NCBI RefSeq assembly: GCF_015100155.1
Contig: NZ_JACKZA010000008.1
Location: 62,001 to 126,000 of the forward strand
Origin: Acidithiobacillus sp. HP-2
GTDB lineage: Bacteria; Pseudomonadota; Gammaproteobacteria; Acidithiobacillales; Acidithiobacillaceae
Length of the DNA: 64,000 nucleotides
Direction: 5' to 3'
A program made the position numbers and the translations under genes. The notes below the pieces were generated by a model, which saw nothing but the letters and a program-made list of their open reading frames with translations, was not told where the DNA came from and did no database searches. Below are positions 8,867-37,627 of the stretch, piece by piece (within the stretch, counting starts at the first letter, position 1; each line of letters opens with the position of its first letter).

Positions 8867-8896
8867 CCATACCCCGCAGCGCGCTGCGGGGTATGG
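8867..8896. promoter_or_regulatory. cydA-cydB intercistronic stem-loop
   Basis: A perfect 14-base-pair inverted repeat (arms 8867-8880 and 8883-8896) with a two-base centre, starting 8 bases after the cydA stop codon on the minus strand. No U-tract follows in the transcript, so it is more likely an mRNA stabiliser or processing signal than a terminator; partial attenuation is possible. Confidence 0.6.
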
Positions 8897-33746: not shown

Positions 33747-34559
33747 ATGAATCCTGGTAATCCGGTATACGATTACATGGTCAACAAGGAACCTTATTAT
33801 CATCCTCAAGGGGATGAGATTGTCCTGTTTACCGCAGCCTATGCCCGGCGCTTGCCGGTCATGATCAAAGGCCCCACGGGCTGCGGCAAATCCCGATTCG
33901 TGGAATACATGGCCTGGAAACTGGGCAAGCCCCTGATCACGGTGGCTTGCAATGAAGATATGACCGCTGCAGATCTGGTGGGCCGCTGGCTCCTGGATGC
34001 AGAGGGGACCCGCTGGCAGGATGGTCCCCTCACGGTGGCGGCTCGCTATGGTGCCATCTGCTATCTGGATGAAATTGTCGAAGCCCGACAGGATAGTACC
34101 GTGGTCATCCACCCCCTGACTGACCATCGTCGCCAGCTCCCGCTGGACAAAAAAGGGGAACTGATTCAGGCGCACGCCGATTTCCAGCTGGTGATTTCCT
34201 ACAATCCGGGATATCAGTCCTTGATGAAGGACCTCAAACAGTCCACCAAGCAGCGTTTCGCCGCTTTTCGCTTTGATTATCCGGAAACAAAGGTGGAAAC
34301 AGAAATCCTGGTCCGTGAAGTGGGTATTCCTGAACAGACTGCGGAACAACTGGTTGCCCTGGCCAAAAGTTCCCGTAACCTGAAAGGACATGGCATGGAT
34401 GAAGGAATATCGACACGCTTGCTGGTTTACGCAGCATCTCTCATTGCCGATGGGGTGCCCGCAACACGCGCCTGCCGGATGGCGCTGATGGACCCGATTA
34501 CGGATGATGAGGACATACGCAGCACACTGGAGCATGCCATCGATGCCACCTTCAACTGA
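33747..34559 (+). CDS. cbbQ: RuBisCO activase AAA+ subunit CbbQ
   Basis: A 270-residue MoxR/NorQ-type AAA+ ATPase. Walker A is GPTGCGKS; Walker B is AICYLDEIVEA; KQRFAAFRFDYP and a sensor Arg follow. The ATG at 33747 has GGAG upstream; the frame is open to 33708 but lacks family sequence. With CbbO, CbbQ forms an activase that frees RuBisCO from bound sugar phosphates. Its 3' end overlaps cbbO by 17 bases. Confidence 0.93.
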   Translation: MNPGNPVYDYMVNKEPYYHPQGDEIVLFTAAYARRLPVMIKGPTGCGKSRFVEYMAWKLGKPLITVACNEDMTAADLVGRWLLDAEGTRWQDGPLTVAARYGAICYLDEIVEARQDSTVVIHPLTDHRRQLPLDKKGELIQAHADFQLVISYNPGYQSLMKDLKQSTKQRFAAFRFDYPETKVETEILVREVGIPEQTAEQLVALAKSSRNLKGHGMDEGISTRLLVYAASLIADGVPATRACRMALMDPITDDEDIRSTLEHAIDATFN

Positions 34560-36822
34560 CGCAGAAACCGGGTCAGCGATTCCGCCCGACGAGGACTACT
34601 GGCGGCGTCATCTGGACTGTGCTTTTAGCTCAGTGCAGGCGGTTTTTGCGGACTGCTTCACGATTGCCGGTGCGCAGTGGCAGGAGCAGGAATTGTTCGC
34701 TTATGTAGATGCTGCCCGCTTTTTGTGCAAATTGGGGCGGGGTGCCGAGCCGGTGATGGCCTTTCTGGAAGGCTGGCCGGAAGTGGTCGCTGCTGCCGGT
34801 CACGACTGTATCGATCCGGTTTTGCAGTGGGTGGCGAAAATCCAGCGTTCGCCCAATGGTGATGTTATCGGATTGTTTTTCCAGACGCTTCCTGCCGTTA
34901 CCCGGGCTTTGCCCAACCAGACGCTGCTTCGCGACTATCTCGATTTGCTGACGGATATTGCCGAGCGCAGCAGCACCTCCATCCATGGCCGCCACGCCAT
35001 TCTCCCCAGCCGTGCCTTGCCTGAATTCATTCGCCTGGCGGCCGAACTCCTGCAAAAGGTGAATCTGGAGGGACTGCAGACCTGGGCAGAATACGGGTTG
35101 CGCTATTATGCCAGTAACCCCGAACGTCAGGCGGATTATTTTGCCCTGCAAAGTGCAGACAGTCGGGCCATTTTTCAGGAACAGCGCGACGGTACCCTGC
35201 TGCGCACCCACGAGCGTGAGATGGACCTCTATCTGCGCGCCCTCTGGGATGAACCCGCCATGCTGGTTCCTTATTCGGAAGCTTTTGATCATCTGCGTCG
35301 GCCCCAGCCTTACCTGGATTCCCTGGGTATGCATCTGCCGGACCTGTACCATGATCGGGAGGGTATATCGGGCCTGGATCAATACCGTCTGGCCCTCGCC
35401 CATCTTGCCGCCCATCGCCGCTACAGTCAGGCGCTTCTTGCCGATAACTGGAGTCCCTTTCAGCGCTTATACATCGAATATTTTGAAGATGCGCGCGTGG
35501 ACACCCTGATTTTGCGGCGTTTTCCAGGTCTGCGGGCGCTGATGCTGCAATTACATCCCCATCCTCAGGAAGAGGCCTGCGATTCCGGACAGGAATCCTG
35601 CGTACGTCATCGTCTGACCCTGTTTTCCCGGGCCATTCTCGATCCTGAGCATGGTTACCAGAACCCCGTTCTCCGGCAATTTGTGCAGCGCTTTCACGAG
35701 CAAATGCTGAACAGCTCGGGCAGTACCCGCAGCATTGCGGAACTCGCCCTGGAATATCTCATTCAGACACGCCTGCCGAGTGACAGTTTTGCCAGGGTTC
35801 ATTTTACCGATACGGAAGTGTCCTACCGGGATGACAACCGCCACCTCTGGCAGTTCATTGATGGAGATCAGGAAAGCGAGGAGGAAAGCAGCCGGGCCGA
35901 AGCGGTATCGGAAAACGAATTGACGCTGGTCCGGCACTATCCCGAGTGGGATTACCGATCGCAACATTACCTACCGGATTGGGTCAGTCTCTACGAGCAT
36001 CTGCATCCACAAGGTTCTGCCAGCGATATCCTGCAGATATTGCAGAAACACGCTGCTTTGGCCAAGCGTCTTGAACGGCTGCTGGATATGCTGAAACCGC
36101 AGGATCGCGAACGCCTGCGCCGTCAGGAAGAAGGATCCGACCTGGATCTGGACTGGGCGCTGCGTTCCTGGGTAGATTATCGCTGCCGACAGAATGTCGA
36201 TCCGCGCATCAACGAAAGTTTCCGCCACGCCCGAAGGAACCTTTCGGTGAGTCTGCTGCTGGATCTTTCCGAATCGCTGAATGATCCGGTTGAGGGTACA
36301 GGCTCAGGACCTACCATCCTTTCCCTGGCCCAGGAAGCCGTTACACTGCTAGCCTGGGCGATTGACCGCCTGGGTGACCCCTTTGCCATTTCCGGCTTTT
36401 ATTCCAACACCCGTCATGAGTTGCGCTACTGGCATATCAAGGGATTTTCTGAACCTTGGCAGGATGCAGTCTACGCACGGCTCGCAGCGCTCCGTGCCGC
36501 CTATTCTACGCGCATGGGTGCGGCCTTGCGTCACGCCGGACACTATCTGTCCGGTCAATCTGCCGACAAGCGCCTGCTGCTGATCCTGACCGATGGACAA
36601 CCGGCCGACATCGATGTGGATGATCCGGATTACCTGCTGGCAGATACCCGTCGCGCCGTTCTGGAGCTGGAGGAGAAGGGCATTTTTTGCCATTGCATCA
36701 GCCTTGATCCGCATGCAGACGAATACGTACGAAAAATTTTTGGCAATCGATTCAGCATTATTGATCGGGTTGAATCGTTGCCGGAAAGATTGCCGGAGAT
36801 TTTTTTAAGCCTGACACGGTGA
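34543..36822 (+). CDS. cbbO: RuBisCO activase adaptor CbbO (VWA domain)
   Basis: A protein of about 759 residues. The ATG at 34543 has GGAG 10 bases upstream; starts at 34504 and 34534 are also in frame. The N-terminal three quarters are helical and family-specific. The C-terminal VWA domain has the MIDAS motif SVSLLLDLSESLND (D-x-S-x-S) and RLLLILTDGQPADIDVDD. CbbO binds RuBisCO through its VWA domain and is moved by the CbbQ hexamer. Length and domain order match complete CbbO proteins. No terminator hairpin of the ordinary kind follows, only the palindromic element at 36834. Confidence 0.92.
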   Translation: MPPSTDAETGSAIPPDEDYWRRHLDCAFSSVQAVFADCFTIAGAQWQEQELFAYVDAARFLCKLGRGAEPVMAFLEGWPEVVAAAGHDCIDPVLQWVAKIQRSPNGDVIGLFFQTLPAVTRALPNQTLLRDYLDLLTDIAERSSTSIHGRHAILPSRALPEFIRLAAELLQKVNLEGLQTWAEYGLRYYASNPERQADYFALQSADSRAIFQEQRDGTLLRTHEREMDLYLRALWDEPAMLVPYSEAFDHLRRPQPYLDSLGMHLPDLYHDREGISGLDQYRLALAHLAAHRRYSQALLADNWSPFQRLYIEYFEDARVDTLILRRFPGLRALMLQLHPHPQEEACDSGQESCVRHRLTLFSRAILDPEHGYQNPVLRQFVQRFHEQMLNSSGSTRSIAELALEYLIQTRLPSDSFARVHFTDTEVSYRDDNRHLWQFIDGDQESEEESSRAEAVSENELTLVRHYPEWDYRSQHYLPDWVSLYEHLHPQGSASDILQILQKHAALAKRLERLLDMLKPQDRERLRRQEEGSDLDLDWALRSWVDYRCRQNVDPRINESFRHARRNLSVSLLLDLSESLNDPVEGTGSGPTILSLAQEAVTLLAWAIDRLGDPFAISGFYSNTRHELRYWHIKGFSEPWQDAVYARLAALRAAYSTRMGAALRHAGHYLSGQSADKRLLLILTDGQPADIDVDDPDYLLADTRRAVLELEEKGIFCHCISLDPHADEYVRKIFGNRFSIIDRVESLPERLPEIFLSLTR

Positions 36823-36833
36823 ATGCCTTCATC

Positions 36834-37030
36834 CTAAAAACGGCAGTTGCCGTGGGTGCTTTTTGCTCCGTTGTTCCTCGCCTGTTGTTCTAGGGCTCAT
36901 CCTGCTGTCAGGGGAGAACTCGCCCTGCGGGCTCAGACAGCTCTCCTGACGGGCGCAGGATTTCGCCAATAACAACAACGGCTCAAAACAAAAGTCGCTG
37001 CAAAGCACCCACGGCAACTGCCGTTTTTAG
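36834..37030. repeat. MITE-like palindromic element between cbbO and the hyf-like operon
   Basis: A 29-base perfect terminal inverted repeat (36834-36862 and 37002-37030; ends CTAAAAAC...GTTTTTAG) encloses 139 bases that also pair imperfectly (ATCCTGC-TGTCAGGGGAG against CTCTCCTGAC-GGGCGCAGGAT). CTTCAT occurs just outside both ends (36827-36832 and 37031-37036), like a target duplication with one extra base on the left. There is no coding capacity. The RNA could fold as one long hairpin and separate the two operons transcriptionally. Confidence 0.75.
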
Positions 37031-37044
37031 CTTCATACGTTAAT

Positions 37045-37061
37045 ATGGACACGCCGTCCAT
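37045..37061. promoter_or_regulatory. Candidate operator of the XRE-cupin regulator
   Basis: ATGGAC-ACGCC-GTCCAT inverted repeat 20 bases before the regulator start; an overlapping GTCC-N8-GGAC (37056-37071) extends it. The position over the probable promoter of the whole regulator-hyf unit suggests autoregulation. Confidence 0.5.
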
Positions 37062-37081
37062 TTTAACGGACAATCCGGGGC

Positions 37082-37627
37082 ATGAAACAGCTTGCTCAAC
37101 GTTTGCGTCAGCTTCGCGAAGACCGACAACTTTCCCTGCGTGCCCTGGGAGAAATGGCCGGGGTCTCTTCCAGTGCGCTATCCCAGATTGAAGCTGAGCA
37201 GGTTTCCCCCTCCATTGCCACGCTTGAGAAAATTTGCACCGCATTGGGGCTCAGGATTGCCGCACTCCTGGATGAACCGGATAGTGAAGCATCCCCGCTC
37301 ATTCTCCGTGCCGGACAAAGACGTCGGGTCTATAGTTCAGGGTCGCATGCCACGATTGAACCACTGGCACGAGGATTTTCCCAAAAAAAAATGCAACCGC
37401 TGCTGGTCACGCTGGATGCAGGTGGAGAATGTGGAGACCACCCTTACAGCAGTGCCGATGGGGAAGAGTTCGCCATGCTCATCAAGGGAAGCGCGCGCTT
37501 TGAACAGCAAGGTTCCAGCTTTGATCTGGATGAGGGGGATGCCGTCTACTATGACCCGCGTCTTTCCCATAACTGGCATAATTTGCATGAATTGCCATCC
37601 GTGCTTTTGATTGTGGTGGCGCAATGA
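37082..37627 (+). CDS. XRE-family regulator with C-terminal cupin domain
   Basis: A 181-residue protein: HTH at residues 1-60 (QLSLRALGEMAGVSSSALSQIE) and cupin domain from about 95 (LVTLDAGGECGDHPYSSADGEEFAMLIKG, then LDEGDAVYYDPRLSHNWHN). Such proteins sense small ligands, often metabolites, through the cupin barrel; the ligand is unknown here. Its TGA overlaps the start of the first hyf-like gene as ATGA, so regulator and complex are one translational unit. A dyad lies just upstream of its start. Confidence 0.88.
   Translation: MKQLAQRLRQLREDRQLSLRALGEMAGVSSSALSQIEAEQVSPSIATLEKICTALGLRIAALLDEPDSEASPLILRAGQRRRVYSSGSHATIEPLARGFSQKKMQPLLVTLDAGGECGDHPYSSADGEEFAMLIKGSARFEQQGSSFDLDEGDAVYYDPRLSHNWHNLHELPSVLLIVVAQ

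Follow-up and report, generated by a model that had tools for sequence, protein, structure and literature searches.

A probable MITE-like palindromic element of Acidithiobacillus that lies mostly behind stop codons and carries its core in either orientation

The palindrome that separates a cbbO-like gene from a hyf-like unit in Acidithiobacillus sp. HP-2 is quite probably a copy of a non-autonomous, MITE-like element, which is the best explanation for the observed and the inferred parts taken as a whole. Copies of this family have WTNAW insertion sites, duplicate 5 bp on insertion, lie for the most part directly after stop codons and occur with either core orientation at the same site. The window is the whole stretch of 64,000 nt that was analyzed, and the genome it comes from is designated G000.

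The element and its fold

The features of the locus are as follows (window coordinates).

34504–36822, + strand: cbbO-like gene, upstream, after the RuBisCO large chain and CbbQ genes; named from gene order and the first-pass annotation
36828–36832, no strand: target duplication TTCAT, left copy, 5 bp; from the sequence, the WTNAW consensus and the empty sites of five other copies
36833–37031: whole element, 199 bp; ends set by family comparison
36833–36857, + strand: left outer arm, the terminal inverted repeat; self-palindromic CGGCAGTTGCCG, A5 tract outside
36834–36862, + strand: perfect 29-base inverted repeat, left
36858–37006, + strand: conserved core, about 149 bp; at 16 of 28 insertion sites shared between genomes, its orientation within the flanks differs
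36877–36983, + strand: inner 107-nt module R1; same interval as the match of model R1 at L001 1545–1651; covariation
37002–37030, − strand: perfect 29-base inverted repeat, right
37007–37031, − strand: right outer arm; T5 at its end on the + strand; terminator-like site 37011–37024 plus tail
37032–37036, no strand: target duplication TTCAT, right copy; from the sequence and the WTNAW consensus
37082–37627, + strand: HTH plus cupin regulator gene, downstream, first of the hyf-like unit

The first-pass annotation had described an element with perfect 29-base inverted ends, imperfectly paired internal arms and CTTCAT just outside both ends, and these features were confirmed. In a scan of the window for perfect pairs of at least 14 bases starting up to 500 bases apart, the 29-base repeat was the longest pair apart from one spacerless palindrome, and no other spaced pair exceeded 14 bases. 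The spacerless one is a 30-bp perfect palindrome at 8867–8896 (CCATACCCCGCAGCG/CGCTGCGGGGTATGG). As single-stranded DNA, positions 36810–37050 fold at −66.8 kcal/mol, versus −32.7 ± 3.7 for 200 shuffles (z = −9.1). Element ends resemble CCTRAAAACGGC, and module R1 comprises, in order, an outer stem, a TCTAGGGCTC loop, a stem, the AACTCGCCCTGCGGGCTCAGACAG apical loop, a stem, a TTTCGCCAA loop and the outer stem again. The sole ORFs to overlap the element are two mechanical ones, of 62 and 103 aa.

The hexamer CTTCAT does start at 36827 and 37031, but also at 22 further places on the + strand of the window, so that taken alone it is weak evidence of a duplication. Because family ends are usually CC...GG and the target is WTNAW, the duplication here is the 5-bp TTCAT, and the C at 37031 is read, from this comparison, as an altered terminal base of the element.

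Copies and distribution

A 198-base query located the element at 30 separate places in G000 (65 matches at E 10, in which the same palindromes are partly counted again as mirror matches); at two of these places, L019 and L020, the copy is broken by an insertion. Matches were also found in eight of the 39 other genomes of the relatives set (9/40 with its own), from two genera; copy counts in this set are lower bounds, with at most 20 candidates scored per genome. A covariance model of the inner module, R1, retrieved at E 1e-4 30 copies in G000, 45 in G001, 39 in G003, 38 in G004, 21 in G010, 12 in G017, 29 in G020, 7 in G008, 8 in G016 and a single one in G435; the remaining 47 of the 57 genomes gave no match. 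The plasmid and phage collections gave no element match at E 1e-5.

No description of the family was found in the titles, abstract beginnings and selected passages of the literature searched, nor, judging by titles, any paper with its motif strings in a bacterial-repeat context; the word "MITE" does not occur in the text of a survey of Acidithiobacillus insertion sequences (PMC10214660). Multicopy class 4 of Geobacter metallireducens was rejected as a candidate, as its description gives CCYTC pentanucleotide repeats. Figure S8 of the same paper is described as holding further multicopy families, including a palindromic one and another whose ends are inverted repeats, and an earlier sighting among them is possible on the comparison of these descriptions.

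Insertion sites, target and search for a parent

For ten copies, the flanking sequences were looked up across 17 genomes of the genus, G000 included. Relatives had empty sites for five of these ten insertions, each with one copy of the duplicated bases; the sites were clean at L007, L010, L012 and L014, and one base differed at L023. A duplication of at least 5 bp flanked 24 of 112 copies, compared to a mean of 6.1 and a maximum of 12 in 200 re-pairings of the flanks, and the remaining 88 had no intact 5-bp duplication under the same rule. The five bases outside 96 canonical element ends gave the consensus WTNAW (T or A in 74, T in 81, A in 82 and T or A in 80 of the 96); copies at shared sites are not independent in these counts or in those of position given below. 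Multicopy state, empty sites for other copies and target duplication thus agree with the MITE-like character proposed in the first-pass annotation.

At three sites the relatives carry short terminator-like hairpins in place of the element (the L010 site in G004, L021 in G004 and G003, and L027 in G004 and G010), and these short palindromes consist of the element's own ends (L314; L307 and L308; L310 and L311). Because the ends are retained, the short forms are best read, from their sequences, as core deletions by which some copies would have shrunk to a short palindrome.

The parent transposon envisaged in the first-pass annotation was not found. A search confined to the canonical end, with up to three mismatches, gave 29 end matches in G000 and 42 in the single-contig genome G004, with no transposase gene between element ends in either; the matches delimited only short or broken copies plus one copy split by an IS110-family element. 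The latter was the only parent candidate, a long end-pair of about 1.06 kb in G004, and was discarded. An IS110-family element lies at L057 1015–2235 (− strand), its protein matching DEDD_Tnp_IS110 and Transposase_20, and such an element occupies one and the same place of the core in the C22 copy, in the broken C4/C25 copy and, in shortened form, in the G004 copy (L057, L058, L067, L332). It looks like a site-specific hitchhiker in the element core, and the flanks suggest recombination between two IS110-split copies.

Core inversion and concerted change of the arms

Grouping 122 copies by both flanks identified 28 insertion sites common to at least two genomes. Both core orientations occur at 16 of these sites, and 22 of 43 pairs are inverted; at the window site the core is oriented in G001 as here and is inverted in G004. 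Orientation is unambiguous, because comparison of the core with its reverse complement gives only 61–65% identity in the five copies tested. Like G000, most relatives have draft assemblies, in which a short-read assembler could in principle flip the core between arms of 25–29 bp; G004 is a single contig. In many cases a core is at least as similar to paralogs of a genome as to the ortholog in that genome, and so conversion between element copies may also be at work.

The arms vary between copies around a constant core, many in the common form (C)CTRAAAACGGC. Over 24-nt arms from 109 copies (L019, L020 and L132 omitted), an arm matches its own partner at 21.9 of 24 positions, versus 15.7 between copies, and the own partner is best or tied in 72; among 58 copies with unusual arms the values are 21.4 versus 13.0, with the own partner strictly best in 42. 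At shared sites, 27 ortholog pairs (of 30 listed, three being skipped as gapped) showed 29 positions changed in both arms, 40 changed in one, 2 other and 523 unchanged, and one indel is common to both arms (L025/L135). Mean identity there was about 0.95 for the core, 0.90 for the flanks and 0.86 for the arms (38 pairs, after omission of two of the 40 listed for their short core). Read on the core's + strand, arm mismatches comprised 30 G-T, 40 A-C and 49 other.

We propose that a putative transposase, cutting with a 5-bp stagger, would move the element. In an extruded or single-stranded hairpin, the two arms would undergo exchange or template switching, a process that would both flip the core and copy changes from arm to arm, and would explain core inversion and concerted arm change alike.

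Position relative to genes

Copies lie at a median of 11 bp from gene 3′ ends and 102 bp from gene starts; within 30 bp of them fall 98 of 133 neighboring 3′ ends, versus 11 of 69 start ends. Genes in these counts are crude longest-ORF calls, with both neighbors assigned for 101 of the 112 copies (48 convergent, 37 tandem and 16 divergent settings); 20 of the 112 copies fall within a mechanical ORF of at least 100 aa. A run of at least four T at both tips was present in 66 of 109 copies, versus 5.1% of 867 control windows, and these A/T tracts could simply be inherited element ends. Judged by position and structure, the likeliest role at gene 3′ ends would be that of a terminator, possibly two-way, or a 3′-end stabilizer.

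The window copy starts 10 bases past the cbbO stop codon and ends 50 bases ahead of the regulator start, in a tandem setting. Pfam models matched the RuBisCO large chain, CbbQ, the HTH-cupin regulator and antiporter-like and NADH-dehydrogenase-like membrane proteins of the locus; none matched the cbbO-like protein (772 aa) at E 1e-5. A simple promoter scan found no promoter-like site inside the element and only one, at 37046–37074, between it and the downstream gene. Terminator-like sites were reported on the + strand only (two, versus 0.7 expected); the mirror site of the left arm is absent from that report, so the case for two-way terminator action is weaker than that for one-way action. Position and structure suggest an insulator or terminator activity: the cbbO transcript would be ended here and kept apart from the regulator/hyf-like unit, whose promoter would lie within 37037–37081. 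A dyad, ATGGAC-ACGCC-GTCCAT, lies at 37045–37061, just 5′ of the regulator gene and overlapping the −35 part of the promoter-like site, and is a candidate operator of the HTH-cupin regulator. Among 30 cbbO-like loci from 17 genomes of the genus, the regulator adjoins only in G000, G004 and G001.

An inner module shared with other phyla

The apical 24-base motif of the core occurs in at least 114 stretches from other bacteria (L190–L303), sits inside a palindrome in the folds listed and is accompanied, in a subset, by the whole inner module. An alignment of twelve modules (A1), from acidophiles, a Nitrospirae genome, Desulfobacterales, Syntrophaceae, Geobacter and other deltaproteobacterial genomes, has 97.1% paired cells; 17 of 26 pairs show changes in both partners. 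The covariation score of this alignment is 0.612, versus 0.195 when shuffled (0/500 as high) and at most 0.178 for slid structures. Its rows are a subset of 15 matches, chosen by a pattern that fixes loop letters, so that loop invariance in A1 is partly due to selection; the outer-stem TCT/AGA was likewise selected, and the variable stem letters were free of selection. For 38 matches (A2), aligned to the model and leaning towards it, the score was 0.726 versus 0.222. Paired cells amount to 96–97% across A1 and A2, and a measure of further pair types was reached by 83/500 (A1) and 11/500 (A2) shuffles.

Eight genomes outside Acidithiobacillus, from Nitrospirae, deltaproteobacteria and Geobacter plus one unplaced, hold 16, 4, 4, 16, 8, 15, 27 and 47 copies at E 1e-6 (the genome with 47 is labeled only Proteobacteria); since they were picked as module carriers, these figures are copy numbers and not a frequency. 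By eye, the outer arms of several Geobacter and Syntrophaceae loci also have GGCAGTTG ... CAACTGCC-like letters. All Rfam matches to the window were far below the gathering score, and L001 and six module loci matched only tRNA and the c-di-AMP riboswitch, elsewhere in those loci.

The apical motif by itself seems to mark a looser relation than the whole module. In 95 matches unlike those of Acidithiobacillus, its 10-nt stems match at 6.5 of 10 positions, versus 3.4 when cross-paired, and at eight or more in 49; there is no clear preference for 3′ ends (within 60 bp, 23/79 3′ ends and 18/65 5′ ends). Three genomes that bear the motif, G255, G374 and G402, gave no match to model R1 at E 1e-15. 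The looser motif occurred in four of 398 genomes of a phylum sample, G000 among them, and a reversed-pattern control gave one match.

Three observations concern single loci. In a Desulfobacterales genome (L242, 5903–6053), the same loops enclose one more stem, nested within the inner stem of the module, and elements may grow by nesting. In another locus from a Desulfobacterales genome (L337, about 1430–1680), an 11-base direct repeat, TTGATGATTGA, seen by eye, flanks a relative of the element and is longer than the 5 bp of the Acidithiobacillus copies. Large palindromes near AAAGAAGGCGACCC-type sequence (L190, L210 and L249 from Zoogloea, L212 from Gallionella, L248 from Rhodoferax) share mainly the apical AACTCGCC-GGCTCARACAG loop and form a second, broader palindrome class.

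A tentative reading, to which we give clearly less than even weight, is that of a superfamily of mobile palindromes, present at the least in Pseudomonadota, Desulfobacterota and Nitrospirota, in which a hairpin-reading enzyme would recognize the folded structure and not the sequence. The loop motifs (TCTAAGGCTC, AACTCGCC-hairpin-GGCTCARACAG and TTCGCCAAGA) would be kept, and the stems, matched by flipping and arm copying, would change only on both sides together. If this were true, the superfamily would be the counterpart in DNA of a covarying RNA, and its mobility would depend on such an enzyme.

Alternative explanations

The most serious alternative to copying between arms is that arm complementarity comes mainly from selection on a hairpin RNA, terminator or stabilizer. 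The location at 3′ ends, the T tracts and the covariation of stems between phyla, with nearly all cells paired, are in its favor; however, double changes at shared sites are nearly as frequent as single ones (29 and 40), one indel is common to both arms, and wobble pairs are not dominant among the arm mismatches, though the core's + strand is not transcribed in every copy. We regard this explanation as possible but doubtful, and selection on the RNA hairpin may add to arm-to-arm copying. An origin of the outer arms as two sides of a host terminator hairpin, with the core inserted in its loop, is improbable. Such an origin would suit variable arms around a constant core and the short terminator-like hairpins found at three loci in relatives, but the five empty sites lack both arms and have one copy of the duplication, which led to the rejection of a host-terminator target as the source of the variable arms; moreover, many arms have the recognizable form (C)CTRAAAACGGC and diverge in concert at shared sites, and the short forms keep the element's own ends, for which core deletion is the better fit.

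Movement of a REP/RAYT-type element by a Y1 (HUH) transposase acting on single-stranded hairpins is very unlikely. The element is indeed palindromic and intergenic, and Y1 matches number 14 in G000, with at least one in seven of the nine carriers of the relatives set, but two carriers, the 100% complete G016 and the 71% complete G020, lack a match at E 0.001, and non-carriers such as G005, G006, G007 and G013 have three to six. A Y1 link was accordingly discarded, there being no clear correlation between Y1 matches and element carriage, and a duplication with a WTNAW target is not expected of Y1 enzymes. Last, the first-pass annotation had considered that a single-copy structure conserved at this locus in all relatives, with no empty site, would be a fixed regulatory structure and not a mobile element. 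For the family this is refuted by its multicopy state and by empty sites elsewhere. At the window locus itself no empty site was found among the three genomes with this gene order (G000, G004 and G001), which are all filled, but the core is inverted in G004 at the same site, and the chance that a fixed structure of the cbbO/hyf-like locus is the explanation appears negligible.

Comparison with known systems

To our knowledge, bacterial MITEs have usually been followed within one genus; the inner fold described here is common to several phyla and has no Rfam match. Spacer inversion, arm change and hairpin collapse are mostly known from plasmid assays, and the 28 shared sites offer a natural, countable record of such palindrome dynamics, from spacer inversion and concerted arm change to collapse to short hairpins. 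If the elements end transcripts, a mobile element would be spreading terminators behind genes of sulfur-oxidizing acidophiles; the copy in the window lies between two clusters, one for carbon fixation and one of respiratory type.

YPAL, as De Gregorio reportedly described in 2006, inserts closely downstream of stop codons, and the present element also lies just behind them, a likeness and not a membership. According to the description in PMC2229807, YPAL (RU-2; Yersinia, ~168 bp) is likewise palindromic, intergenic and abundant, with filled and empty sites and target duplications, and may affect the RNA of upstream genes; the same description gives duplications of 3 to 26 bp and internal inverted repeats, whereas here they are 5 bp at WTNAW and terminal. 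Correia elements (CREE/NEMIS, Neisseria) resemble ours as MITEs with ~24-bp terminal repeats (PMC2229807) and a conserved core, and their inversion is reported in a review (PMC10969869), which cites Elbeyioglu 2017 for it. They are described, in contrast, with TA termini and usually TA target sites (PMC2229807) and as lying mostly upstream of genes, with promoters (PMC10969869), whereas the present element has WTNAW outside CC...GG ends, lies at 3′ ends and has no promoter-like site inside. SPRITE of pneumococcus contains a terminator-like sequence, and ERIC, where it lies at the 3′ ends of genes in Yersinia, changes transcript levels (PMC10969869); going by its description, ERIC differs in its 7-bp terminal repeat and TA ends (PMC2229807). 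REP and BIME sequences, the GTAG- and CGTC-tagged palindromes, are also short intergenic palindromes, but are described as being of 20–40 bp with a tagged end (PMC3733652, in whose text the words Acidithiobacillus, Geobacter and Nitrospira do not occur), versus 199 bp here, and the complete carrier G016 has no Y1 match.

Because inversion of a MITE is known from Correia, and palindromes at 3′ ends from ERIC and, reportedly, YPAL, the element adds a variant to a type already known. It stands out by the way four traits come together: the core is often inverted, the arms change in concert, copies insert just behind stop codons, and the inner fold crosses phyla.
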